Source: Blastococcus atacamensis
GTDB taxonomy: Bacteria; Actinomycetota; Actinomycetes; Mycobacteriales; Geodermatophilaceae
Length of the DNA: 44,328 bases
NCBI RefSeq assembly: GCF_002938425.1
Contig: NZ_POQU01000021.1
Span: forward strand, 1 to 44,328
Direction of reading: 5' to 3'
Both the position numbers and the translations under genes were made by a program. How positions within the stretch are numbered: position 1 is the first letter of the stretch; each line of letters opens with the position of its first letter. Shown piece by piece: positions 2,394 to 32,680 of the stretch. The notes under the pieces were generated by a model that saw only the letters and a list, made by a program, of their open reading frames with translations, did no database searches and was not told the origin of the DNA.

Positions 2394-2454
2394 AAGGACC
2401 CCCCTGCCCCCCACCGCTCGCAGGCTCGCGGTGGGTCCCTGCAAGGGGGCCGGA
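2394..2454 (+). repeat. 61-bp intergenic repeat, copy A
   Basis: This copy starts on the base after the cheW stop. It aligns without gaps to copies at 7661-7721 (+), 28947-29007 (-) and 32620-32680 (-). Conserved blocks are AAGGACC, TGCCCCCCACC, TCGCAGGCTCGCGG, GGG and GGGGGCC. Arms CCCACCGC and GCGGTGGG pair perfectly, and outer C-runs can pair with the G-run, giving a stable hairpin without a U-tract. It is either a terminator family or a REP-like element. Confidence 0.85.
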
Positions 2455-2499
2455 GCTTGGTCACCTTCCGTGATCGATCAGTAGCACAGCTCACCCGAA

Positions 2500-2557
2500 C
2501 ACGCGGCCGTCACGCCCTCGCTCTCCTGCGAAGGGGTGACGGCCGCGTGGCTTTTCC
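2500..2557 (+). terminator. Hairpin terminator after cheW
   Basis: Arms CACGCGGCCGTCAC (2500-2513) and GTGACGGCCGCGTG (2536-2549) pair over 14 bp with a 22-nt loop, followed by CTTTTCC. It sits 107 nt after cheW and 66 nt before the next start, so it could also attenuate read-through into the 2616 gene. Confidence 0.7.
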
Positions 2558-2615
2558 GTAGCCGGGGCACCAGCATGGGACGACCGCACGGTCCCGGATA
2601 GCTGGAGGCGCCGCC

Positions 2616-3518
2616 ATGCCCTACTCGCTGGTCAGTGCCGCCACGCTCGGGTTCGACCTGGTCCGGCTGCCGGCCGGGCGCGCCGTCGCCGAGGTGCTGC
2701 TCACCGGCCTGGGAGCCGACGAGTCCGCCCTCGACCGGCTCGCCACCGTCCACCCGGCGCGCGGCCTGGACGCGGAGCGGCGCGGGGTGCGGGCCGTCCG
2801 CGGGCGCCGCGCCCGCGAGATGGCGGCCGGCGTGCCGCATCTGCGCTCGGCCGCCGATGCGGGCCGGGGCGCGGGGGACCGGACCGCCCTCCTCGTCGCC
2901 CAGCTGGAGCAGGGCACCATCGGTGACGCCCCCACGCTGGAGCGCCTCCTGCGCGAGGACGTCCTGGGCTCCGAGCACCCGCGGCGCTCCGACGTCGACG
3001 TCGACGTCTGGGACGAGGCCACCGAGGTCCTGGCGGACGCGGCCGTCGGCTTCTGGGCCGCCGGAGTGCTGCCGCCCCTCGTGCGGCGCGACCTGACCGC
3101 CGCCTTCGACCGCGCGCAGGACGCCGGCCCGCTGGCCACCCCCGCCGGCTGGCAGCTGGGCCCGGCCGAGGCCGACCTCATGACCTTCCTCGACGCGGTG
3201 CGCGGCCTCGACGACGCCGGACGCACCCGCTGGCGGCTGGCCGTCGACGAGGGGCGCGCCACGCAGCGGCCCTGGGCGACCGCCATGCACGAGGCATCCT
3301 GGGCCGCCCACGTCTCCGGGCGCACCCGGGCGCTCGCCGCCGCCCAGCTGCTCGCCGTCCAGGCCTTCCTCGACGGTGGCTTCGACCTGCGTGACGGCGC
3401 GGCCGGCGTCTGGAACGCCGTCGCCGGGTGCGTGCAGGCGGCCGTCATGGCCGACCTCCTCGGCGAGGAGTCAGCCGCGGTGCTGGTCGCCCCGCGGGAG
3501 TGGGCCCTGCCGGAGTGA
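2616..3518 (+). CDS. Uncharacterised 300-aa protein within the chemotaxis block
   Basis: I do not recognise this family. The ATG at 2616 has a good ribosome site (GGAGG about 10 nt upstream). The protein is Ala/Arg/Leu-rich and mostly helical in appearance, with no signal peptide, no convincing membrane segment and no P-loop. An acidic stretch RRSDVDVDVWDEATEVLADA lies near residues 127-146, and a Trp-rich part containing RPWATAMHEASWAAH near residues 213-240. Third-position GC is high and matches the neighbours, so it is a real native gene. It is bounded by terminators on both sides (2500-2557 and 3549-3573), so it is probably its own transcription unit between cheAW and cheBR. Its position suggests motility or chemotaxis, but this is association only. 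Confidence 0.75.
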   Translation: MPYSLVSAATLGFDLVRLPAGRAVAEVLLTGLGADESALDRLATVHPARGLDAERRGVRAVRGRRAREMAAGVPHLRSAADAGRGAGDRTALLVAQLEQGTIGDAPTLERLLREDVLGSEHPRRSDVDVDVWDEATEVLADAAVGFWAAGVLPPLVRRDLTAAFDRAQDAGPLATPAGWQLGPAEADLMTFLDAVRGLDDAGRTRWRLAVDEGRATQRPWATAMHEASWAAHVSGRTRALAAAQLLAVQAFLDGGFDLRDGAAGVWNAVAGCVQAAVMADLLGEESAAVLVAPREWALPE

Positions 3519-3548
3519 GCGAACCGCTGACGTGATCCACCGCTGACC

Positions 3549-3573
3549 GGCCCCCGGGGACTTCCCGGGGGCC
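3549..3573 (+). terminator. Hairpin terminator after the 300-aa unknown
   Basis: Perfect 10-bp stem GGCCCCCGGG / CCCGGGGGCC with a GACTT loop, 30 nt past the stop at 3518. There is no strong U-run, which is usual in actinobacteria. Confidence 0.75.
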
Positions 3574-3923
3574 GTCGGCATTTCCGCAGCCATTTGTCGA
3601 TCATCGGCGGGCGGTCGTCGAATCGGCGAAAGTCGACAATTATCGACGTCGAAAAGATTGCGTCAGACATTTCGCGTGTCGGCTGAAATCCGCCCTTGCG
3701 CCGCCGACAATCTCAGGACACCAGCAGCTCGCTCCCGCATCGTCGCGGTCGTGCGGGCCGGGCCATCCGGAGCGCGCTCTGTCGCGTCCTCCCCTCTCGC
3801 CCTCCCGCTCACGCGGGCTCGGGACGAAGGCGGAATCGGACGGGGTCGCGCTCAAGCCGGGCGTGCGGGTGCCGATAGAGAGAACGAGCCTGCCCGTCAT
3901 CGGGGGCAGGGCCAGGAGGACGT
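3574..3923 (+). promoter_or_regulatory. Upstream region of the cheBR operon, locally AT-richer with GTCGA inverted repeats
   Basis: This is the longest gene-free stretch (3519-3923). From about 3590 to 3700 it is clearly richer in A/T than its surroundings and holds repeated GTCGA/TCGAC words: an inverted repeat GTCGA-N6-TCGAC at 3632-3647 with another GTCGA at 3648-3652, and a related TGTCGATCAT near 3596. Such spaced arms look like a regulator site, though none is identified. A sigma-28-like promoter lies nearer the gene. I found no small gene here. Confidence 0.5.
3851..3878 (+). promoter_or_regulatory. Sigma-28 (FliA/WhiG-type) promoter for the che operon
   Basis: A CTCAAG -35 element (3851-3856), a 14-nt spacer and a GCCGATAG -10 element (3871-3878) match the flagellar sigma consensus (TAAA or CTCAAG, about 15 nt, GCCGATA). 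It lies 45 nt before the cheB start. This implies that cheBRYX expression follows the motility sigma factor. Confidence 0.75.
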
Positions 3924-5060
3924 GTGAATCCGATCAGGGTGATGGTGGTCGACGACTCGGTCGTCGTCCGCAAGATCGTCACCGATGTGCTCTCCGAGGA
4001 CCCCGGGATCGAGGTCGTCGGCACCGCCGTCAACGGCAAGGTGGCCGTCGCCAAGCTCGAGCAGCTCAAGCCGGACCTCATCACGATGGACATCGAGATG
4101 CCCGAGATGAACGGGATCGAGGCGGTGCGCGCGATCCGAGGCGGTGCCGGGGGTGGTGTGGCGGGACGAGGACTCGGCCGCATCCCGATCATCATGTTCA
4201 GCACGCTGACCGAGCGTGGCGCCACCGCGACCCTGGATGCACTCTCCGCCGGTGCCGACGACTACGTCACCAAGCCGGCCAACGTCGGCAGCGTCGCGCA
4301 GTCGATGGAGAGCGTGCGCCAGCAGCTGATCCCGAAGATCAAGGGCCTGCTGGGCCGGCCGGTCACGCCCGTCCGCGGTGCGACTCCGCCGCCCCCGCCG
4401 CCGAGGCCCGCGGCGCCGCGCACCGGCCCGGGGAAGAAGGCCGCGGTCCTGGTGATCGGCTCCTCCACCGGAGGGCCCGAGGCCCTCACCCGGGTGATCC
4501 CGGCGCTGCCGGGCAACCTGCCCGTGCCCGTCCTGCTGGCCCAGCACATGCCGCCCGTCTTCACCCGCCAGTTCGCCCAGCGCCTCGACCGGCTGAGCCC
4601 CCTGCGGGTGGTCGAGGCCGTCGACGGCACCCCGCTGATGCCGGGCACGGTGCACCTCGCCCCCGGCGACCACCACCTGGTCGTGCGCGCCAACGCCCGT
4701 GCCGCGTTCACGACGTCGCTCAACCAGAACCCGCCGGAGAACTTCTGCCGGCCCGCGGTCGACCCGCTGTTCCGCTCCGCCGTGGCCGCCTACGACGGCG
4801 CAGTCCTCGGCGTCGTGCTCACCGGCATGGGTGCCGACGGCCGCAACGGGTGCGGCGAGATCCGCAACGCCGGCGGGACCGTCGTCGTCCAGGACCAGGC
4901 GACCTCTGTCGTGTGGGGGATGCCGGGCGCCGTGGCGCAGGCCGGCTACGCCGACGAGGTCCTGGCGCTCGACCGGATCGCCGAGACCATCCAGAGACAC
5001 CTCGCCGGCGCCGTGCCCCTCAACTCCGCAACAACCATGGCCGTGGGAGGTCGTCGATGA
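3924..5060 (+). CDS. cheB: Chemotaxis response regulator / protein-glutamate methylesterase CheB
   Basis: CheB removes methyl groups from (and deamidates) receptors when phosphorylated by CheA, giving adaptation opposite to CheR. 378 residues from a GTG at 3924, with AGGAGG just upstream. Receiver domain at residues 1-125: acidic pair D10/D11, phospho-acceptor D56 (TMDIEMPEMNG) and the lysine in YVTKPAN. A Pro-rich linker (near 150-165, PPPPPPRPAAP) joins the esterase domain, which shows the serine motif GSSTGGPEAL, the histidine in LAQHMP and the aspartate in TGMGADGRNG. All catalytic residues are present. The stop overlaps the cheR ATG (ATGA), so translation is coupled. It is the first gene behind the sigma-28-like promoter. 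Confidence 0.97.
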   Translation: MNPIRVMVVDDSVVVRKIVTDVLSEDPGIEVVGTAVNGKVAVAKLEQLKPDLITMDIEMPEMNGIEAVRAIRGGAGGGVAGRGLGRIPIIMFSTLTERGATATLDALSAGADDYVTKPANVGSVAQSMESVRQQLIPKIKGLLGRPVTPVRGATPPPPPPRPAAPRTGPGKKAAVLVIGSSTGGPEALTRVIPALPGNLPVPVLLAQHMPPVFTRQFAQRLDRLSPLRVVEAVDGTPLMPGTVHLAPGDHHLVVRANARAAFTTSLNQNPPENFCRPAVDPLFRSAVAAYDGAVLGVVLTGMGADGRNGCGEIRNAGGTVVVQDQATSVVWGMPGAVAQAGYADEVLALDRIAETIQRHLAGAVPLNSATTMAVGGRR

Positions 5061-5881
5061 GCCTGACCGCGACCAGTTTCGACTGGGTCCGTGAACTCGT
5101 CCGCAAGGAGAGCGCGATCGTTCTCCAACCGGGCAAGGAGTACCTGGTGGAGGCCCGCCTCCTGCCGATCGCCCGGCAGATGGGTCTGCCCGACGTCACC
5201 AAGCTGGTGGAGACCGTGCGCGTGCGCCCGGACGCCGAGAACACGCGGCGGATCGTCGAGGCCCTCACCACCAACGAGACGTCCTGGTTCCGGGACGGTG
5301 ACCCGTTCACCGCCCTCACCTCGACGGTGGTGCCGGCGCTGCTGGCGGCCCGTGGGGCGAACGAGCGCCTGCAGATCTGGTCGGCGGCGAGCTCCAGCGG
5401 CCAGGAGCCGTACACCATCGCGATGCTGCTCGACGACGCGCTGCCCAATGCGGCATCCCGTGTCTCGATCACCGCGACCGACCTCTCCCGGGAGATGGTG
5501 CAGCGCACCAAGGCCGGGAGGTTCAGCCAGCTCGAGGTCAACCGGGGCCTGCCCGCACCCATGCTCGTCCGGCACTTCCAGCGGGCCGGCACGGAGTGGG
5601 AGGTCTCGCCCACCCTGCGGCGGATGGTCACCGCCAGCGAGTGCAACCTGGCTGCGCCGCTGCCGCGGATGGGCCCGTTCGACGTGGTCTACCTGCGCAA
5701 CGTGCTCATCTACTTCGACCTGCCGACCAAGCAGTTGATCCTCCGCCGCGTGCGGGACCTCATGCGACCCGACGGCTGGCTCTTCCTCGGCGCCGCCGAG
5801 ACCACCCTCGGCGTCGACGACTCCTGGGAGCGGGTCGTCATCGGCCGCAGCTCCGCCTACCGCCCACTGAAGGGGGCCTGA
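5057..5881 (+). CDS. cheR: Chemotaxis protein-glutamate O-methyltransferase CheR
   Basis: CheR adds methyl groups from S-adenosylmethionine to receptor glutamates. 274 residues from the ATG overlapping the cheB stop. A longer in-frame reading upstream lies wholly inside cheB and is a shadow. Visible features: helical N-domain (residues 1-75), TTNETSWFRD preceding the methyltransferase fold, the SAM-binding motif WSAASSSGQEPYTIAM, ATDLS, and the late motif FDVVYLRNVLIYFD. The usual SCGCATGQE-type glycine motif here reads SAASSSGQE, an accepted family variant. It is followed one base later by a CheY-like gene. Confidence 0.96.
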   Translation: MSLTATSFDWVRELVRKESAIVLQPGKEYLVEARLLPIARQMGLPDVTKLVETVRVRPDAENTRRIVEALTTNETSWFRDGDPFTALTSTVVPALLAARGANERLQIWSAASSSGQEPYTIAMLLDDALPNAASRVSITATDLSREMVQRTKAGRFSQLEVNRGLPAPMLVRHFQRAGTEWEVSPTLRRMVTASECNLAAPLPRMGPFDVVYLRNVLIYFDLPTKQLILRRVRDLMRPDGWLFLGAAETTLGVDDSWERVVIGRSSAYRPLKGA

Positions 5882-5882
5882 C

Positions 5883-6266
5883 ATGCGTGCCTTGGTGATC
5901 GACGACTCGCGCGCCATGCGCCGGATCGTCACCGGCATCCTCACCAATCTCGGCTACGAGGTCCGCGACGCGGGCCACGGCCGTGAGGGGCTGGACGTCC
6001 TGGACGAGGGCTGGGTCCCCGACCTGGCCACGATCGACTGGAACATGCCGGTGATGGACGGGCTGCAGTTCGTCTCCGCCGTCCGTTCCAACCCCGCCTG
6101 GCGCCGGATGACGATGATGATGGTGACCTCGGAGAGCGAGCACACCCAGATCGTCCGCGCGCTGGCCGCCGGTGCGCACGAGTACATGATCAAGCCGTTC
6201 ACCGCCGACGCGTTCCGCGACAAGCTCGCGCTGCTCGGCCTGCTCCCGCAGGAGGTCGCACTGTGA
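5883..6266 (+). CDS. cheY: CheY-like single-domain response regulator (first copy)
   Basis: A stand-alone 127-residue receiver domain. It has the acidic pair D7/D8, phospho-acceptor D52 in TIDWNMPVMDG, a Thr in MMMVTSES and the conserved K104 in MIKPF, so it should be phosphorylated by CheA. It starts one base after cheR and its stop overlaps the GTG of the CheX gene. A second receiver gene of similar size lies at 6809, with about one third identity by eye, so they are not recent duplicates. One may act at the motor and the other as a phosphate sink. Which is which cannot be told from sequence. Confidence 0.93.
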   Translation: MRALVIDDSRAMRRIVTGILTNLGYEVRDAGHGREGLDVLDEGWVPDLATIDWNMPVMDGLQFVSAVRSNPAWRRMTMMMVTSESEHTQIVRALAAGAHEYMIKPFTADAFRDKLALLGLLPQEVAL

Positions 6267-6808: not shown

Positions 6809-7171
6809 GTGAAGATCCTGATCGCCGACGACAGCCGCGTGATGCGGCAGATCGTCATCCGCACCCTGCGTCAGGCCGGGTACGACGACCACGACATCGT
6901 CGAGGCCGAGGACGGCGCCGACGCGCTGGCCAAGGCCGGCTCCGAGAGCCCGGACCTGATCCTGTCCGACTGGAACATGCCGAACATGAGCGGCATCGAG
7001 TGCCTCCAGGCGCTGCGCGCCCAGGGCTCGAGCGTGCCGTTCGGCTTCGTGACCTCGGAGGGCTCCGCGGAGATGCGGGAGAAGGCCGCCAACGCCGGCG
7101 CGCTGTTCCTCATCGCCAAGCCCTTCACCGCCGACACCTTCAACGAGCACCTGGACGGGGTGATCGCATGA
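6809..7171 (+). CDS. cheY: CheY-like single-domain response regulator (second copy)
   Basis: 120 residues from a GTG at 6809. This is the only junction in the downstream run with a gap (27 nt). It has the acidic pair D7/D8, phospho-acceptor D54 in LSDWNMPNMSG, a Thr in FVTSEGS and K104 in IAKPF. The insertion DDHDIVEAEDG and the sequence around the acceptor resemble the classic motor-binding CheY more than the first copy does. Its stop overlaps the ATG of the next gene (ATGA). Phosphorylation by CheA and dephosphorylation by one of the flanking CheX-like proteins is inferred. Confidence 0.94.
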   Translation: MKILIADDSRVMRQIVIRTLRQAGYDDHDIVEAEDGADALAKAGSESPDLILSDWNMPNMSGIECLQALRAQGSSVPFGFVTSEGSAEMREKAANAGALFLIAKPFTADTFNEHLDGVIA

Positions 7172-7659
7172 CCGCCTCCACCGGGGTGCAGATCCCCGCT
7201 TCCAAGGACATCCGCGACATGCTGACCGGCCTGGTCGGCAAGCCGGTCTCCGTCGCCCCCGGCGCGCCGGTCACCCCGACGCCGGAACGGCCGGTCTCCG
7301 TGGCCGTCTACGTCGACCCGCAGATGAACGTCAACGCCCTGTGCCTGATGGACCTTGGCGCGTCGGCCTACACCGGCTCCGCCCTGGCCCTGCTGCCCCC
7401 CGGCGGCGCGCAGGACGCGGTCGAGGAGGACGGCGAGCTGACCGGCATGCAGGTCGAGGCGCTGTACGAGGTGGTGAACGTGCTCTCCGCGCTGTTCAAC
7501 ACCCCGGGTGCCCCGCACTCCAAGCTGCACAAGCTCTACGCCCCCGGCGAGGAAGTGCCCGGCGATCTGGCCGGCATGCTCTCGGCGTTCAACCGGATCG
7601 ACCTCGCCATCGAGGTGCCCACGTACGGCAAGGGAGCGCTCTCCTTCGTCGTCCCCTGA
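7168..7659 (+). CDS. Probable second CheX/CheC-like protein
   Basis: 163 residues from the ATG overlapping the upstream cheY stop. The protein is not obviously annotated by sequence, but it has a helix reading EALYEVVNVLSALFN with the E-x-x-N spacing (Glu then Val-Val-Asn) of CheC/CheX phosphatases, preceded by a strand region and a Gly/Pro-rich loop (LLPPGGAQD). An N-terminal segment of about 35 residues is Pro/Val-rich and looks like a linker. It ends the operon: the 61-bp repeat copy B begins one base after the stop, followed by a 20-bp terminator. I infer a second CheY-P phosphatase or a divergent relative that binds without catalysis. Confidence 0.6.
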   Translation: MTASTGVQIPASKDIRDMLTGLVGKPVSVAPGAPVTPTPERPVSVAVYVDPQMNVNALCLMDLGASAYTGSALALLPPGGAQDAVEEDGELTGMQVEALYEVVNVLSALFNTPGAPHSKLHKLYAPGEEVPGDLAGMLSAFNRIDLAIEVPTYGKGALSFVVP

Positions 7660-7660
7660 G

Positions 7661-7721
7661 AAAGGACCACCCTTCCCCCCACGCCTCGCACGCTCGGCGC
7701 GGGCCCCTGAACGGTGGCCGA
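7661..7721 (+). repeat. 61-bp intergenic repeat, copy B
   Basis: Second copy, starting one base after the stop at 7659. It is the most divergent of the four (ACCACCCTTCC in place of ACCCCCCTGCC, and CTCGGCGCGGG in place of CTCGCGGCGGG), but it aligns over all 61 positions without a gap. Confidence 0.75.
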
Positions 7722-7724
7722 ACC

Positions 7725-7769
7725 CACGCCACGACCCCCGTCGCACGCCGCGACGGGGGTCGTGGCGTG
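7725..7769. terminator. Bidirectional hairpin terminator (20-bp perfect stem)
   Basis: Arms 7725-7744 and 7750-7769 are perfectly complementary over 20 bp (starting CACGCCACGACCCCC) with an ACGCC loop. It lies between the convergent che operon and the minus-strand ATPase gene and can serve both. Confidence 0.85.
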
Positions 7770-7787: not shown

Positions 7788-8246
7788 TCAGGCGAGCGCG
7801 GCCCGGGACTCGTCGGCCTCGGTGGGCAGGCAGGCCCAGACGTGCTTGCACTCCTCGTCCACGTACCAGCCGTGGGCGACCGACAGGCGGGCGACGAGCT
7901 GCAGGCCCATGCCGCCCTGGGCCGGGTCGCGGTCGACGGTCGGCGCGGGCATCGAGCCCGGCGCCCGGTCGCTGACGTCGAGCAGCCAGCCCCCGCTGCC
8001 GGCCACCACGGTGGCGACGACGGGACGTTCGCCGTGCCGCAGCGCGTTGGAGGCCAGCTCGTCGAAGGCCAGGATGAGCTGCTCGCTGGAGGGGTCGTCC
8101 CCCTCCGGCGGGTAGCCGACGCGGCAGAGCCGTGACCGCAGGGCGGCCCGCGCGGCGGGCAGCTCGGCCAGACCGTGCAGCCGCCAGCGCCACATCTCCC
8201 CACGGCCGTCGGGCAGAGGGCGCACCGGCCATGCGAGTCGCACCAT
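7788..8246 (-). CDS. Anti-sigma-factor-type serine kinase ATPase (RsbW/SpoIIAB-like, HATPase_c_2)
   Basis: 152 residues from the ATG at 8246, with a GGGGAGG purine run just upstream. An in-frame extension to 8483 would overlap the divergent gene and is rejected. It has the GHKL ATPase boxes: N box LAFDELASNALRHG, G1 box VSDRAPG and G2 box GGMGLQLVARL. Small proteins of this class bind sigma factors or phosphorylate anti-anti-sigma partners. It is divergent from a PAS-GAF-PP2C phosphatase (8462), the natural opposing enzyme in partner switching. No anti-sigma-factor antagonist (STAS) or sigma gene is adjacent, so its targets lie elsewhere. Confidence 0.85.
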   Translation of the reverse strand: MVRLAWPVRPLPDGRGEMWRWRLHGLAELPAARAALRSRLCRVGYPPEGDDPSSEQLILAFDELASNALRHGERPVVATVVAGSGGWLLDVSDRAPGSMPAPTVDRDPAQGGMGLQLVARLSVAHGWYVDEECKHVWACLPTEADESRAALA

Positions 8247-8461: not shown

Positions 8462-10225
8462 ATGCGGCGGACGGACACGGCACCGTTGCGTGGTGACCTG
8501 CTGCTCGAGGCGGTCGAGGGCATGGACCGCCCGTTGTTCGTCCTCGACGACGACTGGACCTTCGTGTACGTGAACCCGGCCGGTGCGGGGGTGCTCGACC
8601 GCAGGGTCGACGAACTCGTCGGCCACGACATCTGGGTGGAGTTCCCCGAGGCGGTCGGCGGGCCGTTCGAGTCGCTGTACCGGGAGGTGCGGCGGTCGGG
8701 CCGCGCGGGCAGCACCGAGGCCTGGTTCGGGCCCCTGGAGAAGTGGTTCCGGGCGGATGCCTTCCTCACCGAGGCCGGCCTGGTGATCAGCTACGACGAC
8801 GTCACCGAGCGCCGCCGGGCCGAGGACGAGCGCGTGGCCGCCGTCGCCGCCCGCGAGCGCGCGGTCGCGGAGGCAGACCGGGCGGCGCGCGCGGCCGAGG
8901 AGGCCGGCCGGCACCTCATGCTGCTGGGCGACATCAACCTGGCGATGACCTCGACGTACGACACCGACGAGGCGGTACAGCGTTTTGCCGAGCTGGTGGT
9001 CCCGCTGCTGGCCGACTGGTGCATCGTCAGCGTCATCGACCCCGACGGGACGCGCAGGGACGTCGGGCGCGCGCACCGGGACCCGGCCCTGGTGCCGGAT
9101 CTGCACCGCTACGCCGACCTGCGGGTGACCACCAACCACGCGAGCGCGCCCGTGCCCCGGATGCTGCGCGACCCGCAGCCGGTCGTCTTCCCGGAACTCA
9201 CCCCCGCGATCGTCGAGTCGATGGTCCCCGAGCCGGCCGCCCGCGCGGTGCTCGCCCCGCTCCGCCCGGCGGCCGCCGCGGGCTTCCCGCTGCTCGCGCG
9301 CGGCGAGCTCATTGGCGGTTTCACGCTGATCAACGGCCCGGAGCGGGGGGCGCACGCGCCGACCGAGCTCCGGACTGCGGAGATCGCCTCACGCCGGGCT
9401 GCTCTCGCGCTGGACAACGCCCGGCTGTCCTCGCTCAACCAGCAGGTCGCCGAGCGGTTGCAGCTGAGCCTGCTGTCCCCGCCGGTGCAGCCGGACAACC
9501 TCGAGCTGGCGGTCCGCTACCGCCCGGCGACCCAGGGCGTCTCGATCGGTGGTGACTGGTACGACGCCTTCCTGCAGCCCGACGGGCACACCGTGCTGGT
9601 GATCGGCGACGTGATGGGGCACGACATCGAGGCCGCCGCGGCGATGGGGCAGATCAAGACCCTGGTCCGCGGTATCGCCTACGACCGCCTGGAGGACCCG
9701 GCGGGTCTGCTGAGCCGGGTCGACCACGCGCTCGTCGGGCTCGCGGTGCCGGCCATGGCGACGGCGCTGGTGTGCCGGGTGGAGCAGGACGCGGCCGACC
9801 GTGCCGCCGGCGTCCGCCGCCTGCTGTGGGCCTCGGCCGGGCATCCCGACCCGATGCTCCTGCTGCCCGACGGGCGGGTCGAGGACCTGGCCGTGCCCGT
9901 CGGACCCCCGCTGGGCATCGGCTGGCCCGGCGACCGCTCCGACGGCGACGCCGTGGTCCCCGACGGCAGCACGCTGCTGCTGTTCACCGACGGCCTGTTC
10001 GAACGGCGCGGGCTGCCGCTGGACGACGGGCGCGCCCAGGTCCGTGCGCTGCTGGAGTCCTCGGCCGACCTGTCCCTCACGGACCTGTGTGACCGGCTGC
10101 TGGCCGAGATGCTGGGCGAGGGCGTCGAGGACGACGTCGCCGTCCTGGCGGTCCGCGCGCACCCGGTGGACGGGAACCGCCCCGCCGAGGCGGGCCCGGA
10201 GCTGCTTCCGCCGTCGGTGGGCTGA
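8462..10225 (+). CDS. PAS-GAF-PP2C (SpoIIE-type) serine phosphatase
   Basis: 587 residues from the ATG at 8462. An upstream in-frame ATG at 8396 lacks a ribosome site. Order: PAS domain (about residues 18-125, from RPLFVLDDDWTFVYVNPAG), an Ala/Glu-rich coiled linker (about 125-165), GAF domain (about 165-330), then a PP2C/SpoIIE phosphatase (about 350-570). The metal-binding acidic residues are in GGDWYDAFLQPDG, VIGDVMGHD, LLLFTDGLFERR and EDDVAVLAVR. There are no membrane segments. Such enzymes dephosphorylate anti-anti-sigma proteins in answer to a bound signal. It is a clear paralogue of the gene at 25444, sharing even the C-terminal RPAEAGP. The ligand sensed is unknown. Confidence 0.92.
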   Translation: MRRTDTAPLRGDLLLEAVEGMDRPLFVLDDDWTFVYVNPAGAGVLDRRVDELVGHDIWVEFPEAVGGPFESLYREVRRSGRAGSTEAWFGPLEKWFRADAFLTEAGLVISYDDVTERRRAEDERVAAVAARERAVAEADRAARAAEEAGRHLMLLGDINLAMTSTYDTDEAVQRFAELVVPLLADWCIVSVIDPDGTRRDVGRAHRDPALVPDLHRYADLRVTTNHASAPVPRMLRDPQPVVFPELTPAIVESMVPEPAARAVLAPLRPAAAAGFPLLARGELIGGFTLINGPERGAHAPTELRTAEIASRRAALALDNARLSSLNQQVAERLQLSLLSPPVQPDNLELAVRYRPATQGVSIGGDWYDAFLQPDGHTVLVIGDVMGHDIEAAAAMGQIKTLVRGIAYDRLEDPAGLLSRVDHALVGLAVPAMATALVCRVEQDAADRAAGVRRLLWASAGHPDPMLLLPDGRVEDLAVPVGPPLGIGWPGDRSDGDAVVPDGSTLLLFTDGLFERRGLPLDDGRAQVRALLESSADLSLTDLCDRLLAEMLGEGVEDDVAVLAVRAHPVDGNRPAEAGPELLPPSVG

Positions 10226-25443: not shown

Positions 25444-28041
25444 TCAGGCGGCGGGGTCCGGCGGCACGGTGGAAGGCACGCGCCGCGGACCGGCCTCCGC
25501 CGGACGGGGCCGGTCCTGGGGGTGCAGCCGCACGGCGACGAGCGCGACGTCGTCCTCGGGCCGGCCGTGCACCAGTCGCTCCAGCAGCTCGTCGAGCATC
25601 TCCTGGAGCGGCCGGCCGGCGAGCTCGAGAAGCGCCTCGCGCAGCCGGTGGATGCCGTCGTCGAGGTCGGAGTCGCGGCGCTCCACCAGGCCGTCGGTGT
25701 AGAGCAGCACCGTCGAGCCGCGGTCGAGCGTGATCACCGACTCGCGGCGCCGGCTGGTCGGGTCGACGCCCAGCAGCAGGTCCCCGCTCCACTCCGCAAG
25801 CTCGGCGACGCTGCCGTCGGGGTTGATGACCAGCGGCGGCAGGTGACCGGCGTTGGCCCAGCGCATGCGGGTGAGACCCCGCGCGAGCTCGTCGGGGGTC
25901 TGCTCGAAGCGGGCCACCGCGGCGGTCGCCAGGGTCTGCATCTGCAGGGTGGTCATCGAGGTGTCCAGGCCGCGGAGCACCTCGACCGGCCCGGCGTCGC
26001 TGTAGGTGGCGATCCCGCGCAGGAGGCCGCGCAGCTGCCCCATCGCGGCCGCGGCCTCGGTGTCGTGCCCGACGACGTCGCCGATCACCAGCATCGTGGT
26101 GCCGCCTGGCTGCAGGAACGCGTCGTACCAGTCGCCGCCGACCCGGGCCGCCTCGGCGGCGGGCAGGTAGCGCACGGCGATCTCGGCGTGGTCGGGTTCC
26201 GGCGGCTCGGTGAGCAGGCTGCGCTGGAGGCCCTCCGCGAGCTGCTGCTGGGCGCTGTAGAGCCGGAGGTTGTCCAGCGCCAGGCCCGCGCGGTCGGCTA
26301 CCTCCTGCGCCGTGGCCAGGTCCGCCTCCCGCACCGGGGTGCCGTCGGCGTAGAACACGGTGAGCAGGCCGACCGTCCGGTTGCGGCCGCGCAGCGGGAG
26401 CACGACGGCCTCGCGGGGGGCCAGCCGCAGCAGCACCTCGCGGATCTCGCCGGCGGGGAACATCTCCCGGACCTCGCGACCGGCCCTGCGGATCACCTCG
26501 GAGGTGCGCAGCGCGACCGCCGCGGGGGAGTCCGGCGGCATGGAGTCCAGCCGGAGCTCGGTGTAGCGCTCGAGGTCGGGCAGCATCTCCGGATCGGCGT
26601 GCCAGCACCCGACGTCCCGCGGGCGGCCGTCGGTGTCGACGACGGTCACGATGCAGAAGTCGGCGAGCGCCGGGACGACCAGCTGGGGAAGCTTGGCGGT
26701 CGCGGCCAGCGGGTCCAGCGCACCGGCCAGCTCGGCGCTGACCTCGGCCAGCAGGGCCAGCCGGCGGGTGGCGTCGGCTGCCTGCTCCTCGACGCGGCGG
26801 CGCTCGGTGACCTCGAGGAAGTAGACCGACAGCCCATCGGGGGTCGGCCAGGCCCGCAGCTCGAACCAGCCGTTCAGCGGCGGGTAGTAGGCGTCGAGGG
26901 CCCTCGGCTCACCGGTTCGTACCGCCTCGCGGAAGCTGTGTTCGAAGACACTGTCGACGGCGTCGGGGAACGCCTCCCACAGCTCCCGGCCGAGCAGATC
27001 GTCGCGCGAGGACTGCAGCAGCCGCTCGGCGACGGCGTTGACGTAGGTGAATCGCCACTCCCGGTCGAGGCTGTAGAAGCCCGCCGGCATGGCCTCGAGC
27101 ACGCGGGTGACCAGCGTGGCCGCCTCTCGCTCGCCGGTCACGTCGTAGGCGGTGCCGACCACGCGGGCGGTGTGCCCGCCGGACCCGGGCACGGCGCGAC
27201 CCCGCGCGTGGATCCAGCGCGTCTCGCCGCTGGGCCACACCACCCGGTAGGTGGCGTCGTACTCGCCGCTGGTCTCGATCGCCTGCTGCAGCGCCTCGCT
27301 GACCCACGGCAGGTCGTCGGGGTGCAGGCGCGAGTTGAACGCCTCCAGCGTGCGCCCGAAGCTGCCCTCCTCGAACCCGAACATCGTGTCGAGCTGGTCG
27401 TCCCACGTCAGGGCGCCGGTCTCGGGGTCCAGGTCCCAGGTGCCGACGCCGCCGGCTTCGGCGGCCAGCTCCCACCGGACGCGGTCGTCCTCGTAGCGCC
27501 GCAGGAGGGCCGACAGCTGGAGCTCGGTCATCACCGATCCGGCGAGCTGCTGCAGCGTGGCGACCTCTGAGGGCGCCCACGGCCGCGGTTCGGGGTCGAA
27601 GACGCACAGCGCGCCGATCGTCCGTCCGTCCGTGTCGGTGAGCGCGGTGCCGAGGTAGGCCCCCACCACGCCTGCCTGCACCGCGGGCAGGTGGCTCACG
27701 CGATCGTCGGACCGGGCGTCGGCGACCACGAGGGGCTCACCGACCGGGAGCGCCGCCGTGACCGTGCACAGCGACTCCTCCAGGGGGCCGCGGGTGCCCA
27801 CGGCGGCTGCACCCGTGCCGGCGGCCACGTGCTGGACGTCGGTCAGCAGGGACACCTGGCTGCCCGCCGTCCCGAGGAGACGGGCGGCCAGGTCGGCCAG
27901 CCGGCCCAGACCCGAGGGGTGGCCGTCGGGGAGGACGCGGCGCGCAGCCTCGGCCCGGGAGGGGTCCAGGCGGAGTCGGGCCGCCGCGCGGTCGGCTGCG
28001 GTGGGTCCCGCTGCGACCGTGCGGTCCGTGGATCGGTCCAC
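25444..28041 (-). CDS. GAF-PAS-PAS-GAF-PP2C (SpoIIE-type) serine phosphatase
   Basis: 865 residues from a GTG at 28041 (weak ribosome site). Order: N-terminal GAF (about 40-175), PAS with PAC (about 185-310, GVGTWDLDPETGALTWD), second PAS (about 315-420, AGFYSLDREWRFTYVNAVAE), GAF (about 425-590), PP2C/SpoIIE domain (about 610-840). Metal residues sit in GGDWYDAFLQPGG, VIGDVVGHD, LLYTDGLVERR and PEDDVALVAVR. It is soluble. It shares the last PAS-GAF-PP2C part and the C-terminal RPAEAGP motif with the 8462 gene, so the pair are paralogues, with an extra sensory front half here. It probably resets anti-anti-sigma proteins in answer to ligand, light or redox cues. The cue is unknown. Confidence 0.92.
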   Translation of the reverse strand: MDRSTDRTVAAGPTAADRAAARLRLDPSRAEAARRVLPDGHPSGLGRLADLAARLLGTAGSQVSLLTDVQHVAAGTGAAAVGTRGPLEESLCTVTAALPVGEPLVVADARSDDRVSHLPAVQAGVVGAYLGTALTDTDGRTIGALCVFDPEPRPWAPSEVATLQQLAGSVMTELQLSALLRRYEDDRVRWELAAEAGGVGTWDLDPETGALTWDDQLDTMFGFEEGSFGRTLEAFNSRLHPDDLPWVSEALQQAIETSGEYDATYRVVWPSGETRWIHARGRAVPGSGGHTARVVGTAYDVTGEREAATLVTRVLEAMPAGFYSLDREWRFTYVNAVAERLLQSSRDDLLGRELWEAFPDAVDSVFEHSFREAVRTGEPRALDAYYPPLNGWFELRAWPTPDGLSVYFLEVTERRRVEEQAADATRRLALLAEVSAELAGALDPLAATAKLPQLVVPALADFCIVTVVDTDGRPRDVGCWHADPEMLPDLERYTELRLDSMPPDSPAAVALRTSEVIRRAGREVREMFPAGEIREVLLRLAPREAVVLPLRGRNRTVGLLTVFYADGTPVREADLATAQEVADRAGLALDNLRLYSAQQQLAEGLQRSLLTEPPEPDHAEIAVRYLPAAEAARVGGDWYDAFLQPGGTTMLVIGDVVGHDTEAAAAMGQLRGLLRGIATYSDAGPVEVLRGLDTSMTTLQMQTLATAAVARFEQTPDELARGLTRMRWANAGHLPPLVINPDGSVAELAEWSGDLLLGVDPTSRRRESVITLDRGSTVLLYTDGLVERRDSDLDDGIHRLREALLELAGRPLQEMLDELLERLVHGRPEDDVALVAVRLHPQDRPRPAEAGPRRVPSTVPPDPAA

Positions 28042-28179: not shown

Positions 28180-28923
28180 TCAGGCCGGCACGACGAGGGT
28201 CAGCGCGGACCCGCCATCATGTTCCACGTGCAACCCCGCGCGCCCGAGGAGGGAGCGCAGCCGCCGGACGTCGGGAGGCTCGGCCCGGGTGGTCGCCAGG
28301 AGCCGGGCGAGGCGGCCCTTGTGCGCCTTGTTGAAGTGGCTGACGACGGCGCGCGTGCCGTCGGGCCGTTCGCTGAGCACCGACACCGTCACCGCGTCGG
28401 GAGCCGGGGCCAGTGCGGCGTAGGACCCGCTGCGCAGGTCGACGACCAGGTCCCCGACCGCGCCGAGCACCGGACCCAGGACCGGCTTCCACAGGGTGCG
28501 CAGGCTCGGCAGCCCGGGCAGGGCCGAGCCCGCCGAGAGCCGATAGGCGGGGATCGGGTCGTCGGCGGTCACCAGACCGAACAGAGCCGACCCCACGGCC
28601 AGCCGCTGGTCGGCGCGGGCCCGCTGCGCCCGGGTGAGCGAGCCGACGTCCAGGGCGTCGTAGAGGACGCCGGTGTACCGCTGGACGGCGGGCAGGGTGC
28701 CGGCGGTGAACAACGCGGCGTTGCGGGCGATCTCCTCGTCCTGCTGGGGGGAGATGCCCAGCGCGGCCCGCGAGGCGGGGACGTCGCCGGCGAGCTCCAC
28801 CAGCGACTCGGCGATCCTGGTGCGCACGCCGGTCAGCTCCGGGGCCGACAGCGCACCCAGGTCGAGCGGGGCGCCGTCGCCACCCGGGGCCTTGCTCTCC
28901 GACGGGGGGAGGAGGACCAGCAC
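28180..28923 (-). CDS. yaaA: YaaA-family peroxide stress protein
   Basis: 247 residues from a GTG at 28923, chosen because AAGGAG lies about 8 nt before it. The reading further upstream crosses the exonuclease gene. N-terminal LVLLPPSESK, GVLYDALD, and the C-terminal NKAHKGRLARLL match the DUF328/YaaA family, whose E. coli member limits free iron and DNA damage during peroxide stress and binds DNA. It follows xthA on the same strand with 80 bp between (holding repeat copy C), so the two DNA-damage functions may share a transcript if the repeat does not terminate fully. Confidence 0.88.
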   Translation of the reverse strand: MLVLLPPSESKAPGGDGAPLDLGALSAPELTGVRTRIAESLVELAGDVPASRAALGISPQQDEEIARNAALFTAGTLPAVQRYTGVLYDALDVGSLTRAQRARADQRLAVGSALFGLVTADDPIPAYRLSAGSALPGLPSLRTLWKPVLGPVLGAVGDLVVDLRSGSYAALAPAPDAVTVSVLSERPDGTRAVVSHFNKAHKGRLARLLATTRAEPPDVRRLRSLLGRAGLHVEHDGGSALTLVVPA

Positions 28924-28946: not shown

Positions 28947-29007
28947 CCGGCCCCCGTGCAGGGTCCCGCCGCGAGCGTGCGAGTGGGTGGGGGCAGGGGG
29001 GTCCTAC
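28947..29007 (-). repeat. 61-bp intergenic repeat, copy C
   Basis: On the minus strand this copy starts at the end of xthA: its third to fourth positions are part of the TAG stop (29006-29004). It aligns gap-free to copy A and differs mainly at the centre (ACCCACTCGCACGCTCGCGG). It separates xthA from yaaA, so it does not always mark the end of a gene cluster. Confidence 0.85.
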
Positions 29008-29804
29008 TGCAGGTCGACGACCACCGGCGCGTGGTCGCTGGCGCCCTTGCCCTTGCGCTCCTCCCGGTCGATGAAGGCGTGCTCCACCCGGCCGGCCAGT
29101 GCGGGCGAGCCGAGGACGAAGTCGATCCGCATGCCCTCGCGACGCGGGAAGCGCAGCTGCGTGTAGTCCCAGTAGGTGTAGACGCCCGGTCCGGGGGTGT
29201 GCGGGCGCACGACGTCGGCGTACCCGGCGTCCACGATCGCCCGGAACGCGGCGCGCTCCGGCGGGGAGACGTGGGTCGAGTGCGCGAAGACCGCCATGTC
29301 CCACACGTCGTCGTTCTCGGGGGCGATGTTCCAGTCACCGACCAGCGCCACGGGAGCAGCGGGGTTCTCGGCCAGCCAGCTCGCCGCGTTCCCCCGCAGG
29401 GCGGCGAGCCAGTCGAGCTTGTACTGCAGGTGCGGGTCGGCCAGCGTCCGGCCGTTGGGCACGTACAGGCTCCACACCCGGACGCCACCGCAGACGGCGC
29501 CCAGCGCCCGCGCCTCGGCCGTGGGGTCCTGGCCCTCCTTGGACGACCAGGTCGGCATGCCGTCGAAGCCCATCCGGACGTCGTCCAGCCCGACGCGGGA
29601 GAGGACCGCGACCCCGTTCCACTGCGAGTGGCCCACGTGGGCGACCTGGTAGCCGAGGGCGGTGAAACGGGCCTCGGGGAACTGGTCGTCGCGGCACTTG
29701 GTCTCCTGCAGGGCCAGCACGTCGACGTCGTGCCGCTCCAGGAAGGCCGCCACCCGGTCGACGCGGGTACGGATCGAGTTCACGTTCCAGGTCGCCAGGC
29801 GCAC
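29004..29804 (-). CDS. xthA: Exodeoxyribonuclease III
   Basis: 266 residues, the usual length of Xth, a 3' exonuclease and AP endonuclease in base excision repair. The GTG at 29804 encodes the family N-terminus VRLATWNVNSIRTR. There is no ribosome site, but TAAGCT lies 8 nt upstream, fitting a leaderless transcript. Catalytic residues visible: E in ALQETKC, Y/N region YVPNG, D and N in LVGDWNIAP, YTYWDY, and the D-H pair at the end in KGASDHAPVVVDL. Complete. Divergent from the LCP gene. Confidence 0.95.
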   Translation of the reverse strand: MRLATWNVNSIRTRVDRVAAFLERHDVDVLALQETKCRDDQFPEARFTALGYQVAHVGHSQWNGVAVLSRVGLDDVRMGFDGMPTWSSKEGQDPTAEARALGAVCGGVRVWSLYVPNGRTLADPHLQYKLDWLAALRGNAASWLAENPAAPVALVGDWNIAPENDDVWDMAVFAHSTHVSPPERAAFRAIVDAGYADVVRPHTPGPGVYTYWDYTQLRFPRREGMRIDFVLGSPALAGRVEHAFIDREERKGKGASDHAPVVVDLQ

Positions 29805-29812
29805 GGGACCCG

Positions 29813-29818
29813 AGCTTA
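29813..29818 (-). promoter_or_regulatory. -10 box (TAAGCT) of xthA, leaderless type
   Basis: TAAGCT (29818-29813 on the minus strand) ends 8 nt before the GTG start, so transcription should begin at about the start codon. No good -35 is visible. Confidence 0.5.
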
Positions 29819-29953
29819 CGGAGCGGTCTCCGGCCGGCGTGCGGGGCGGCGGCCCGTCGTGTCCCTGGATCGGGCGGTCCCGGGGCCCCGGAGTCGTCGT
29901 CGGCGCCCCCACCTGCCCGGACGGTGCGATCATGGCCACGTGAGCGGGTGGCG

Positions 29954-31495
29954 ATGGGTGACGAGGTGACCGCCGGTCCGGCTCCGGTCGCGCCCGAGCA
30001 CGGCGGCGGTCGGATGTCCGGGCACGGCACGCGCCGTGCCTCGCGCAGCTTCGGGTCGGCACTGGGCTGGACCGCCCTGGGCACGGTCGTGCCCGGCGTG
30101 GGCTACCTCGCGGCCGGCCGGCGATGGCTGGGCGGGATCGTGCTCGGTCTCTTCCTGCTGCTGGTCGGCGCGGTGGTCTGGCTGGTCACCGGTGGACGCC
30201 GGGTCGCCGCCCGGACCGCGGTGGACACCGACGTGCTGCAGTGGGCGACCGTCGGTATCGGTGCCCTCGCCCTGCTCTGGGTGGTCGTCGTCGTGACCGG
30301 CTACCGGATGCTGCTCCCGCGCCGGACCTCCCGCGGGCGCCAGGTGATCGGCGGTCTGGTCGTCGCGCTCCTGGTGGCGGGGATCGCCGGCCCGGCCGTG
30401 TTCGCCGGCCAGCTCGTGGCCACCTCGCGCGACCTGATCGACGGCGTCTTCGCCGACGACCGGCAGTCGGCGACCGTGCCCGACAGCCCCGATCCCTTCG
30501 GCAGCAAGGAGCGGGTCAACGTCCTGCTCCTGGGCGGCGACGGCGGCGAGGGCCGTGAGGGCGTGCGCACCGACACGGTGATCGTGGCCAGCACCGACAC
30601 CGAGACCGGTGAGACCACGCTGTTCAGCCTGCCCCGCAACCTGGAGGACCTGCCCTTTCCGGCCGACAGCCCGCTGCGGGAGGTCTACCCCGAGGGCTTC
30701 GACGCCGGCAGCGAGAGCGAGAGCCTGCTCAACGCCGTCTACCGGAACGGCCCGGCGGAGCACCCCGACATCCTCGGCCCGACCGACGACCCCGGCGCGG
30801 ACTTCCTCAAGCTGGGGGTCGGCGAGGCGCTCGGCCTCCCGATCGACTACTACGTCCTGGTCAACCTCGAGGGCTTCAGCCGGCTGGTCGACGCCCTCGG
30901 CGGGATCACGGTCAACGTCAACTACTACGTCCCGATCAACGGCGACCCCGGGACCAGGGAACTGCCCGACGACTACATCGAGCCCGGCCCCGACCAGGAG
31001 ATGGACGGGTACACCGCGCTGCAGTTCGCCCGCGGCCGGTTCGGCCTCACCGACTACGACCGCATGGCCCGCCAGCGCTGCACCATCGACGCGATCGTGG
31101 ACGCCGCCGACCCGGTGACCCTGCTGCAGCGGTACCAGGAGCTGGCGGCGACCACCCAGGACATCGTGAGCACCGACATCCCGCGCTCGGTCCTCGACGA
31201 CTTCGTCGACCTGGCCTTCCTGGTGAAGGACGCCGAGCTGCGCAGCGTCGTCTTCGACGAGCAGGTCATCGACCCGGCCTATCCGGACTACGACCGCATG
31301 CGGGAGCTGGTCGAGGAAGCCATCGCGCCACCGGTCGCGCCCGAGCCCGCTCCGGAGACCTCGCCCGAGCCCGCGCCGGGTACCGAGCCGCCGGCCCCGA
31401 GCCCCGTGACCGACGTCGGGGACGCGTGCGCCTACGACCCCGTGCGCGCCGCCGAGGCACGCGCCCAGGGCGAGCCGCCGACCCGCCAGGGCTGA
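29954..31495 (+). CDS. LytR-CpsA-Psr (LCP) family cell-wall glycopolymer ligase
   Basis: 513 residues from the ATG at 29954; a further ATG at 30014 is an alternative. Four hydrophobic segments near the N-terminus (about residues 36-54, 58-78, 97-119, 131-152) are more than the single anchor of typical LCP proteins. The extracellular LCP domain (about 187-395) has the pyrophosphate-binding arginines and aspartates in GVRTDTVIVAST, FSLPRNLED and YDRMARQRC. A Pro/Glu-rich tail follows (about 455-490, PEPAPETSPEPAPG). LCP enzymes transfer lipid-linked glycopolymers to peptidoglycan. No polysaccharide cluster adjoins, so the polymer is unknown. Confidence 0.9.
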   Translation: MGDEVTAGPAPVAPEHGGGRMSGHGTRRASRSFGSALGWTALGTVVPGVGYLAAGRRWLGGIVLGLFLLLVGAVVWLVTGGRRVAARTAVDTDVLQWATVGIGALALLWVVVVVTGYRMLLPRRTSRGRQVIGGLVVALLVAGIAGPAVFAGQLVATSRDLIDGVFADDRQSATVPDSPDPFGSKERVNVLLLGGDGGEGREGVRTDTVIVASTDTETGETTLFSLPRNLEDLPFPADSPLREVYPEGFDAGSESESLLNAVYRNGPAEHPDILGPTDDPGADFLKLGVGEALGLPIDYYVLVNLEGFSRLVDALGGITVNVNYYVPINGDPGTRELPDDYIEPGPDQEMDGYTALQFARGRFGLTDYDRMARQRCTIDAIVDAADPVTLLQRYQELAATTQDIVSTDIPRSVLDDFVDLAFLVKDAELRSVVFDEQVIDPAYPDYDRMRELVEEAIAPPVAPEPAPETSPEPAPGTEPPAPSPVTDVGDACAYDPVRAAEARAQGEPPTRQG

Positions 31496-31502
31496 CCTCG
31501 CT

Positions 31503-31527
31503 CCGACGCCGCCCGGGGCGGCGTCGG
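31503..31527 (+). terminator. Hairpin terminator after LCP gene
   Basis: 11-bp perfect stem CCGACGCCGCC / GGCGGCGTCGG with a CGG loop, 7 nt after the stop at 31495. It is followed by a G-rich rather than U-rich stretch. Confidence 0.65.
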
Positions 31528-31558
31528 GGCGTGCCGGGGCGGGGCGGAGAATGACCGC

Positions 31559-32077
31559 GTGCCCGCCGCAGTCGTCCGTCCCGTCCCCGCTGTCGACGAC
31601 GTCCTGCGGGCGGAGATGCTGGCGTGCTGGACCGACGTCTCCAACGCCGGTGGAGCCGTGGGGTTCGTGCCTCCGGTCACCCCGGACGACGTCGCCCCGC
31701 TGCTGGACCGGCTCCTCGAGGGCGTCCGGTCGGGGCGCGACGTGCTGTGCGTGCTCACCGTCGACGGGCGGACGGCGGGGTTCGCCGCGCTGGTCGGCTC
31801 GGCCGGTCCGCTGCGCCGGCACTGGGGGACCGTCCTGCGGGTCCAGGTCCACCCGTCCCGCCAGGGGGAGGGCCTGGGGCGGGTGCTCATGGACGGCGTG
31901 CACGAGATCGCCCGCAGCCGGGGGTGGGAGTTCCTCCACCTCACTGCGCGCGGCGGTACCGGGCTGGACGCCTTCTACCGCCGGCTGGGCTACCGAGAGG
32001 TGGGCCGTCTGCCGGGTGCGATCCGGGTGGCGCCCGGGGACGACCGGGACGAGATCTCGCTGGTGCGGGCGCTCTAG
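31559..32077 (+). CDS. GNAT-family N-acetyltransferase
   Basis: 172 residues from a GTG at 31559 with no clear ribosome site. The acetyl-CoA-binding motif A reads VQVHPSRQGEGLGRVLMDGVHEIAR (Q/R-x-x-G-x-G/A at RQGEGLG), followed by the C-terminal LDAFYRRLGYREVGRLPG typical of GNAT motif B. The N-terminal part has FAALVGSAG. Members acetylate small amines, antibiotics or protein N-termini. The substrate cannot be inferred. A small membrane protein follows 45 bases on. Confidence 0.88.
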   Translation: MPAAVVRPVPAVDDVLRAEMLACWTDVSNAGGAVGFVPPVTPDDVAPLLDRLLEGVRSGRDVLCVLTVDGRTAGFAALVGSAGPLRRHWGTVLRVQVHPSRQGEGLGRVLMDGVHEIARSRGWEFLHLTARGGTGLDAFYRRLGYREVGRLPGAIRVAPGDDRDEISLVRAL

Positions 32078-32122
32078 ACCCGAGCGGTCGGGCCGCCCCG
32101 ACCCTCTGGCACCGTGGACCCC

Positions 32123-32326
32123 ATGTCCGCCCCGGAGCCGTCGCCCACCGCCCGCCGCGAGCGCCTCGTGGGGCTGCTCGTGCTCGGCATCGCCGTCGTG
32201 CTGCTGGTTTCCTCGCCGACGTGGTTCGCCAGCGACCGGGTCGGCGTGGGGGTGGGCCAGGTCGTGCTGGCCGTCGTCCTCGCCGGGGTCGGCGCCCTGC
32301 TGCTGCGCCGGGCCCCGCGGAGCTGA
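32123..32326 (+). CDS. Small two-segment membrane protein
   Basis: 67 residues from the ATG at 32123; a GTG at 32114 would add three. After a Pro/Arg-rich cytosolic start (SAPEPSPTARRERLV) come two hydrophobic segments, GLLVLGIAVVLLVSSPTW and VGVGQVVLAVVLAGVGALLL, then a basic end RRAPRS. No family recognised. Composition and third-position GC agree with a real gene, but no strong ribosome site is seen. Confidence 0.55.
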   Translation: MSAPEPSPTARRERLVGLLVLGIAVVLLVSSPTWFASDRVGVGVGQVVLAVVLAGVGALLLRRAPRS

Positions 32327-32398
32327 GCTCTCCGATTGCGGGCCGGTGTGACCAGCAGCACACTCGCGTCCGTCGGAGCGGCTGGAGGAAGGGGCTCG

Positions 32399-32602
32399 AT
32401 GAAGCTGGCCAAGCAGGAACTGGTGCGCGTGCTGCGCACGGAGGGCGACAACGACACGGCCGACGCGGTCGAGGGCGGCGGGTTGCCCGACGAGCTCGAC
32501 ACGGAGCGGGACGCCGAGGGGCTGGCCGCGATCGGCCTGGACCGGACGACCCTGATGAGCAAGCTGGCCGGCGGATCCCTGGGGACCACGCTCACCCCCT
32601 GA
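32399..32602 (+). CDS. Small acidic uncharacterised protein
   Basis: 67 residues from the ATG at 32399, with a strong purine-rich ribosome site (GGAGGAAGGG) upstream. The protein is soluble and acidic: MKLAKQELVRVLRTEGDND is amphipathic, followed by a Gly/Asp/Glu-rich middle (DAVEGGGLPDELDTERD) and LDRTTLMSKLAGG near the end. I do not recognise the family. The clear ribosome site and codon pattern argue that it is translated. It converges on the acyl-CoA dehydrogenase, with repeat copy D between them. Confidence 0.7.
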   Translation: MKLAKQELVRVLRTEGDNDTADAVEGGGLPDELDTERDAEGLAAIGLDRTTLMSKLAGGSLGTTLTP

Positions 32603-32619
32603 TTCCGCGAGGTCTCGCG

Positions 32620-32680
32620 GCGGCCCCGGTGCGGGGGCCCGCCGCGAGCCTGCGACTGGTGGGGGGCAGCGGGATCCTTC
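32620..32680 (-). repeat. 61-bp intergenic repeat, copy D
   Basis: On the minus strand it begins one base after the acyl-CoA dehydrogenase stop (32684-32682). It aligns gap-free to copies A-C, with the core TGCCCCCCACC and TCGCAGGCTCGCGGCGGG. Since the plus-strand gene ends at 32602, it could serve as terminator for both directions here. Confidence 0.85.

Follow-up and report, generated by a model that had tools for sequence, protein, structure and literature searches.

The window analysed here is the whole contig NZ_POQU01000021.1 of Blastococcus atacamensis (44,328 nucleotides (nt), positions 1 to 44,328, forward strand), and it carries four copies, A to D, of a short hairpin-forming element placed directly behind stop codons. 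The best explanation, to which we give a probability of roughly 0.65, is that they belong to a family of short, mobile, non-coding palindromes of REP-like (repetitive extragenic palindrome-like) type in Geodermatophilaceae, bacteria of soil and stone. The copies lie at 2394-2454 (+), 7661-7721 (+), 28947-29007 (−) and 32620-32680 (−), with the places and orientations given in an earlier note on this DNA. The gapless alignment reported there held in that no internal gap was found across the four copies, except that the register of copy A was off by 1 and must begin at 2393. All four were indeed found directly behind the stop and in sense with the host gene; the distance from the end of the stop to GGACC or GGATC is 2, 4, −1 and 4 nt for A, B, C and D, and copy C overlaps its stop codon by sharing the G of TAG.

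We built a covariance model, R1, from copies A to D. Within the window, R1 gave these copies, from which it was built, 75-91 bits, and everything else at most 13.5 bits. In the genome of the window (G000, 3.89 Mb, 163 contigs), at least 150 matches were obtained at E ≤ 1, at least 140 of them at ≥40 bits, and stretches L080, L065 and L078 contained three further matches beyond those listed. Flanks were available for 135 of the 150 matches (12 of the 15 left out score ≥40 bits). The 128 copies with flanks and ≥40 bits were used for the consensus, stop-position, tail, base-frequency, shared-site, folding and alignment-free analyses; matches below 40 bits entered only the 135-copy count of gene context and the stop-codon comparison.

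The family is large and lineage-wide, and exceeds chance. Among 40 genomes including G000, 23 matched at E ≤ 1e-5, corresponding to 23 of the 24 from the same family and 0 of the 16 outside it; relatives within the family had from 2 to at least 128 matches per genome, and G022 had none. Of 96 genomes sampled across the family, 85 had at least one match, covering 9 of the 12 genera, and in an order-wide sample 17 of 121 genomes matched, 15 of which were Geodermatophilaceae. G152 and G161, from other families of the order, had two and one strong matches, which may reflect transfer or contamination. A pattern scan returned at least 80 loci in Geodermatophilus, Blastococcus, Modestobacter, Klenkia, Trujillonella and one Frankiales metagenome-assembled genome, with two chance matches in Streptomyces and Myxococcota. 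At the gathering score, Rfam returned nothing for the window, and around copy A there was no Rfam match at E ≤ 1. The suggestion that the family is undescribed agrees with the literature searched, in which no description was found, most subscription journals lying outside the reach of that search.

The core of the element, about 56 nt, consists of GGACC, a variable outer stem, a C-rich internal loop, an inner stem, a TCGCAnGCTC loop and GGCC. The consensus of the 128 copies reads GAAGGACC, variable outer arm, C-rich spacer, inner arm, CTCGCAnGCTC, inner arm, nCCCTG, outer arm and GGCC; in R1, the loop has 10 nt and the stems 10+8 pairs. A 16-nt tail like GTTCCAGCACGTCACC follows the core in 56/128 copies, and 47 of these 56 were post-stop, compared with 39 of the 72 tail-less copies. 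The ends of the element, GAAGGACC and GGCCGTTCC, are imperfect inverted repeats.

Strong covariation was found in the stems, far beyond shuffled controls, in a test of the compensatory changes for which the earlier note had called. When 122 copies were aligned by fitting to the model, standard pairs occupied 92.0% of pair cells versus 77.2% in shuffles, and double-change cells numbered 297 versus 94. Two-sided changes were present at 13 of 18 pairs, and sliding the partners lowered pairing to at most 49.5%. Independently of any alignment, the outer stem matched at 7.98 of 10 positions versus 6.00 with permuted partners (maximum 6.29 in 1000), and its 5' arm comprised 64 distinct 7-mers. RNAalifold on a MAFFT alignment recovered only the inner stem, because length differences split the outer stem in that alignment; for the outer stem we rely on the alignment fitted to the model and on the alignment-free test.

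Single-sequence folding was less informative. As RNA, copies A to C share a common outer stem, with a weaker inner stem in C, whereas the outer stem of copy D is mismatched and its minimum free energy fold differs. For their base composition, the RNA folds were unexceptional (z −1.4, −1.3, −0.7 and +1.0 for A to D), and DNA parameters gave a clear two-stem form only for copy A (z −1.1, +0.5, +1.2 and +1.0). This signal was too weak, and we rejected it as structural evidence. Some variant forms were also seen: stretches L296 (C119:52197), L266 and L245 carry short or truncated elements, with the outer stem or 5' end only, also directly post-stop, and L374 (site 32 of G013, the genome nearest to G000 by two proteins searched) has what looks like the left half joined to its own reverse complement, forming a long and almost perfect palindrome.

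To describe the position of the copies, genes were called with a simple codon model. For 102 of the 135 copies, the upstream gene was on the same strand and the copy lay outside called genes, and 88 of these begin −1 to 6 nt past the stop; the others had an opposite-strand upstream gene (25), lay inside a called gene (7) or had no upstream gene in the stretch (1). Among the 128 copies, 86 are sense post-stop, starting −1 to 6 nt after a same-strand stop, and 13 have an opposite-strand stop against their 3' end (8 only so, 5 both). Thus the fixed post-stop location and orientation proposed earlier amount to a strong preference, which is not strict, with 8 copies at an opposite-strand stop only and 34 at neither kind of called stop.

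Post-stop copies begin 0, 1, 2, 4 or 5 nt after the stop, apart from one at −1 and one at 6; a distance of 3 does not occur among them. At position −6 before GGACC, T occurs in 1% and G in 70% of the 128 copies, which fits the missing distance of 3 nt. At C98:29801, the copy stands 3 nt behind a TAA that, judging from the counterpart in G013, is probably a real stop missed by gene calling. In other genomes, 39 of 84 copies lie 1-5 nt past a same-strand stop, 24 of them at 4 and none at 3; 12 are inside a called gene, and for 10 the upstream gene is on the opposite strand. These 84 include two chance matches (L143, L164), and the scan pattern fixed GAAGGACC, so that distance 0 was impossible there. 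In the DNA chosen around the copies, stop trinucleotides numbered 1347 in intergenic positions versus 484 at gene stops; gene ends are therefore favoured beyond the bare trinucleotide, and a plain TGA/TAG DNA target as sole cause is disfavoured by this count.

A few copies differ in their immediate context. Those at C43:1997, C75:41393 and C98:92287 begin at CCTAG, and by eye the reverse complement resembles the −10 box of a divergent gene. At G000:C76:24629-24692 (−), L189 and L185, called frames cross the element and end within about 75 nt of its start; the C76 copy has CAG where TAG is usual.

The copies in the window, their host genes and their surroundings are as follows.

2396..2451 (+): core hairpin of copy A, GGACC...GGCC; host stop TGA at 2391-2393
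2418-2427 (+): apical loop of copy A, TCGCAGGCTC
1932..2393 (+): CheW-domain gene (PF01584 by Pfam) that hosts copy A
2500..2555 (+): hairpin then TTTT downstream of copy A, candidate native terminator; similar in several element-free orthologs, by eye
7664..7719 (+): core hairpin of copy B; host stop TGA at 7657-7659
7168..7659 (+): gene that hosts copy B; product of 163 aa without a Pfam hit at E ≤ 0.001
7726..7768 (+): hairpin downstream of copy B; by eye, some element-free orthologs have one like it
28949..29004 (−): core hairpin of copy C, beginning with the G that ends the stop TAG (29004-29006)
29004..29804 (−): host gene of copy C, endonuclease/exonuclease/phosphatase, Exo_endo_phos (PF03372) by Pfam
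28180-28923 (−): next same-strand gene after copy C, match to H2O2_YaaD/YaaA (PF03883)
32622..32677 (−): core hairpin of copy D, with outer-stem mismatches; site common to G013; host stop TGA at 32682-32684
32682..33893 (−): host gene of copy D, acyl-CoA dehydrogenase

The window also encodes two SpoIIE-type phosphatases with PAS/GAF domains (8462-10225 and 25444-28041) and a HATPase_c_2 protein (7788-8195), in addition to the CheW protein at 1932-2393.

Empty orthologous sites, nested and tandem copies, and variable copy numbers indicate that the element is mobile. Orthologous regions in relatives comprise filled and element-free sites, with the protein end mostly unchanged; at L245 6115, the filled gene is one residue longer at its end than the others. 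Inspected by eye, the CheW site of copy A was element-free in 14 of 17 orthologs, filled in 2 and occupied by a 5' remnant in 1 (L245). In the CheW orthologs L236 and L242, the element lies 5 and 4 nt past the stop and the stems are different. By the same inspection, site B was filled in 0 of 17 orthologs, site C had a decayed piece in 1 of 23 (L257), and at site D the G013 ortholog (L248) was the sole filled one among 19 listed. When R1 was run on 40 orthologous stretches, it gave 10 matches at E ≤ 0.001. Copies nested inside older copies were recognised by eye in L151, L163 and L186, in L266 and in L300. The C68 array consists of four 46-bp right-half units that are 97% identical, and copy number within one genus ranges from 0 to more than 120. 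The array spans G000:C68:45240-45560; similar tandem 44-46 bp units of right half plus tail, up to four, were seen at C19, C75:41360 and C68:29490. At G013 sites 16, 29, 34 and 101, an element of opposite orientation was observed by eye at or near the orthologous place.

We compared sites occupied in both G000 and G013. For G013, 107 copies were listed and 97 taken into the comparison; at least 27 sites are common to them and the 128 G000 copies, versus about 3 expected by chance overlap, on our estimate for about 3,900 genes. Of 28 shared-site rows, row 116 was left out as a miscall. Upstream DNA at these sites is 80.8 to 95.9% identical. Hairpin identity averaged 0.82 versus 0.74 for random pairs, and the G013 hairpins at sites 36, 74 and 87, at least, were wrongly bounded, which lowered their identity. 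The ortholog was the best of 128 matches at only 4 of the 27 sites (median rank 18), a result that by itself is no proof of replacement since a best-of-128 comparison favours paralogs near saturation of variable positions. By eye, a discrete subfamily switch occurred at 6 of the 27 sites (6, 69, 70, 98, 105 and 120); at site 98 the unusual tail is kept, and the hairpin and stop differ. Pairs 49, 52 and 80 keep the same subfamily.

Stop codons also differed more often at pairs with elements than at control pairs. They differ in 12 of 22 pairs in which both genes have an element, 3 of 11 with one element and 9 of 59 with neither (first versus last, Fisher p 0.001). Elements in this comparison were recognised by pattern, and removing two false positives with equal stops (C78_1_2615 and C75_39400_2403) leaves 12 of 20 differing. 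TAG is the stop of 30/109 genes with an element-like pattern after the stop versus 38/361 others. It is as if stop and hairpin were exchanged together at shared sites. In 22 of 26 cases, folding of the G013 hairpin is better than the average for G000 hairpins with random substitutions, and 11 beat 95% of them. Evolution in place, constrained by folding, can account for some of the shared-site differences. Replacement or a new insertion is favoured by the switches of subfamily and by the altered stops.

That folding is kept in this way also speaks for the possibility that the element serves mainly to terminate transcription or to protect mRNA 3' ends and is selected at each gene, with compensatory changes arising in place. 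The strong covariation of the stems and the sense orientation of the 102 copies behind a same-strand gene point the same way, and slightly weaker hairpins downstream of elements may do so as well: the best downstream hairpin had a median of −23.1 after post-stop elements, −24.9 after other stops (p 0.05) and −22.2 in random stretches. We nevertheless consider this explanation unlikely. No U-tract follows any of copies A to D, in accordance with the earlier description and unlike an intrinsic terminator, and native-looking hairpins persist beyond A and B, with equivalents in several element-free orthologs (by eye). Further, in 15 of 57 co-directional post-stop copies the next gene begins within 35 nt of the copy's end. 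The terminator role suggested earlier is not demonstrated by these observations, although it keeps some probability. Both roles are also opposed by the few gene ends that carry an element, by G022 without any match, by the subfamily switches at one and the same site and by the copies at no called stop.

Regarding the means of spread, the earlier note envisaged a REP-like element carried by an enzyme. The REP-like spread is borne out, and a REP-type transposase (REP-associated tyrosine transposase, RAYT, with a Y1 domain) was not found: Y1_Tnp (PF01797) matched in 0 of 96 family genomes, with controls positive in 5 of 14 and other transposase families not searched. An earlier search for PF01797 had likewise found none in G000 and 13 genomes of its genus, and the sole match among 23 genomes was in G029, from another family of the order. 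We rejected a RAYT link on these grounds.

Movement of the copies by a RAYT (Y1, HUH) transposase, as for GTAG REPs, would account for the GTAG-like bases before GGACC (G at −6 in 70%, T or A at −5 in 75%, G at −3 in 77%) and for TAG being the stop in 24/84 post-stop copies at distances 0-5 (17/24 at 2, 7/12 at 5). In view of the PF01797 result and of exact GTAG at −6 to −3 in only 13/128 copies, we regard it as highly improbable. GTGG occupies that position in 4/128, and the common bases are limited to G at −6 and at −3. The copies are high-copy, dispersed, mostly extragenic palindromes near the 3' ends of open reading frames (ORFs), as GTAG REPs are; with no conserved tag, and no Y1 gene in the 96 family genomes, they were not assigned to the GTAG REP/RAYT class. 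Membership among CGTC REPs was also rejected: the loop of 10 nt and the 10+8 pairs do not fit that class, and CGTC occurs solely within the tail, some 9 nt away from GGCC. Because the tag and transposase tests failed, we call the element REP-like and not a member of either class.

The element might alternatively be a miniature inverted-repeat transposable element mobilised in trans by a DDE- or DEDD-type insertion sequence with similar ends. Imperfect inverted ends, nested insertions, variable copy number and the lack of a Y1 enzyme in the 96 family genomes are consistent with such an origin. The sites compared by eye gave no target-site duplication, and a tail scan of 70 places, with 13 stretches and 4 loci inspected, revealed no longer element (DDE/DEDD transposases were not searched), so we think this improbable.

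We therefore return to a REP-like mobile palindrome as the preferred explanation. Copies may have been inserted, or older copies replaced, by an enzyme or recombination route other than Y1/RAYT. Insertion directly behind the stop would leave the protein unchanged and would therefore be tolerated. Transcribed into the 3' untranslated region (UTR), the hairpin most likely would act like post-stop E. coli REPs, with slower termination and altered mRNA decay; by this analogy, it would probably influence translation termination or the 3' ends of mRNAs, and any host benefit would be secondary. More tentatively, and with distinctly less confidence, we speculate that the non-Y1/RAYT route recognises gene ends and swaps cassettes of stop plus structured 3' UTR at conserved sites, leaving the protein intact. 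Integron attC sites, which have R boxes and are recombined by an integron integrase, came into consideration as well, since they also follow stop codons.

Several points weigh against a REP-like mobile family. No target-site duplication was recognised at the empty sites compared by eye, and no mobilising gene is identified in the searches made (Y1/RAYT). The shared-site differences could also be explained by fast in-place evolution or by independent insertion at favoured ends. Of the 128 copies, 34 lie at neither kind of called stop, and the preference for gene ends is not fully accounted for by a plain TGA/TAG target, nor by simple tolerance. Moreover, the proposed RNA effects rest on the analogy with E. 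coli REPs.

Since related species differ in filled gene ends and in hairpins, natural filled/empty pairs are available. They could be used to test the effect of a post-stop hairpin on translation termination and mRNA decay, and the element family offers a route to look for a new mobilising enzyme.

Among known systems, GTAG REPs are closest in habit. According to passages of Di Nocera and colleagues (PMC3733652), they occur in Proteobacteria and some other phyla, are RAYT-linked, lie near ORF 3' ends and often supply a TAG stop with their termini. The present element is likewise a high-copy dispersed palindrome near ORF 3' ends that often supplies the TAG stop, but it has a longer two-stem core, an unfixed tag and no Y1 gene in 96 family genomes. 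CGTC REPs are described in the same passages as mainly alpha-proteobacterial, near the 3' ends of flanking ORFs, with no dedicated transposase known, a CGTC tag, stems of 8-9 bp, loops of 4-5 nt and a CCA-like tail. Our element resembles them in its closeness to ORF 3' ends and in that no dedicated transposase is known for the CGTC class, and differs in having no CGTC tag beside the stem and a larger loop (10 nt). The terms Geodermatophil-, Frankia, Blastococcus and Actinobacteria are absent from the text of that paper, and in passages of a Geodermatophilaceae genomics paper 'palindromic' refers to CRISPR (PMC9686282).

E. coli REPs within 15 nt of the stop are reported to cause ribosome stalling and to lower translation (Liang, Rudd and Deutscher 2015, as cited in a passage of PMC12306157). 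They share with the present element a hairpin directly after the stop, and no sequence relation is claimed.

Intrinsic terminators without a U-tract are GC-rich hairpins after a gene. The present element differs from them in its conserved loop and ends, its empty sites and its nested and reverse-oriented copies. The best known REPs are moved by RAYTs, whereas in this actinobacterial family a comparable, strongly covarying element occurs in most of the genomes sampled, and a RAYT was found in none of them.

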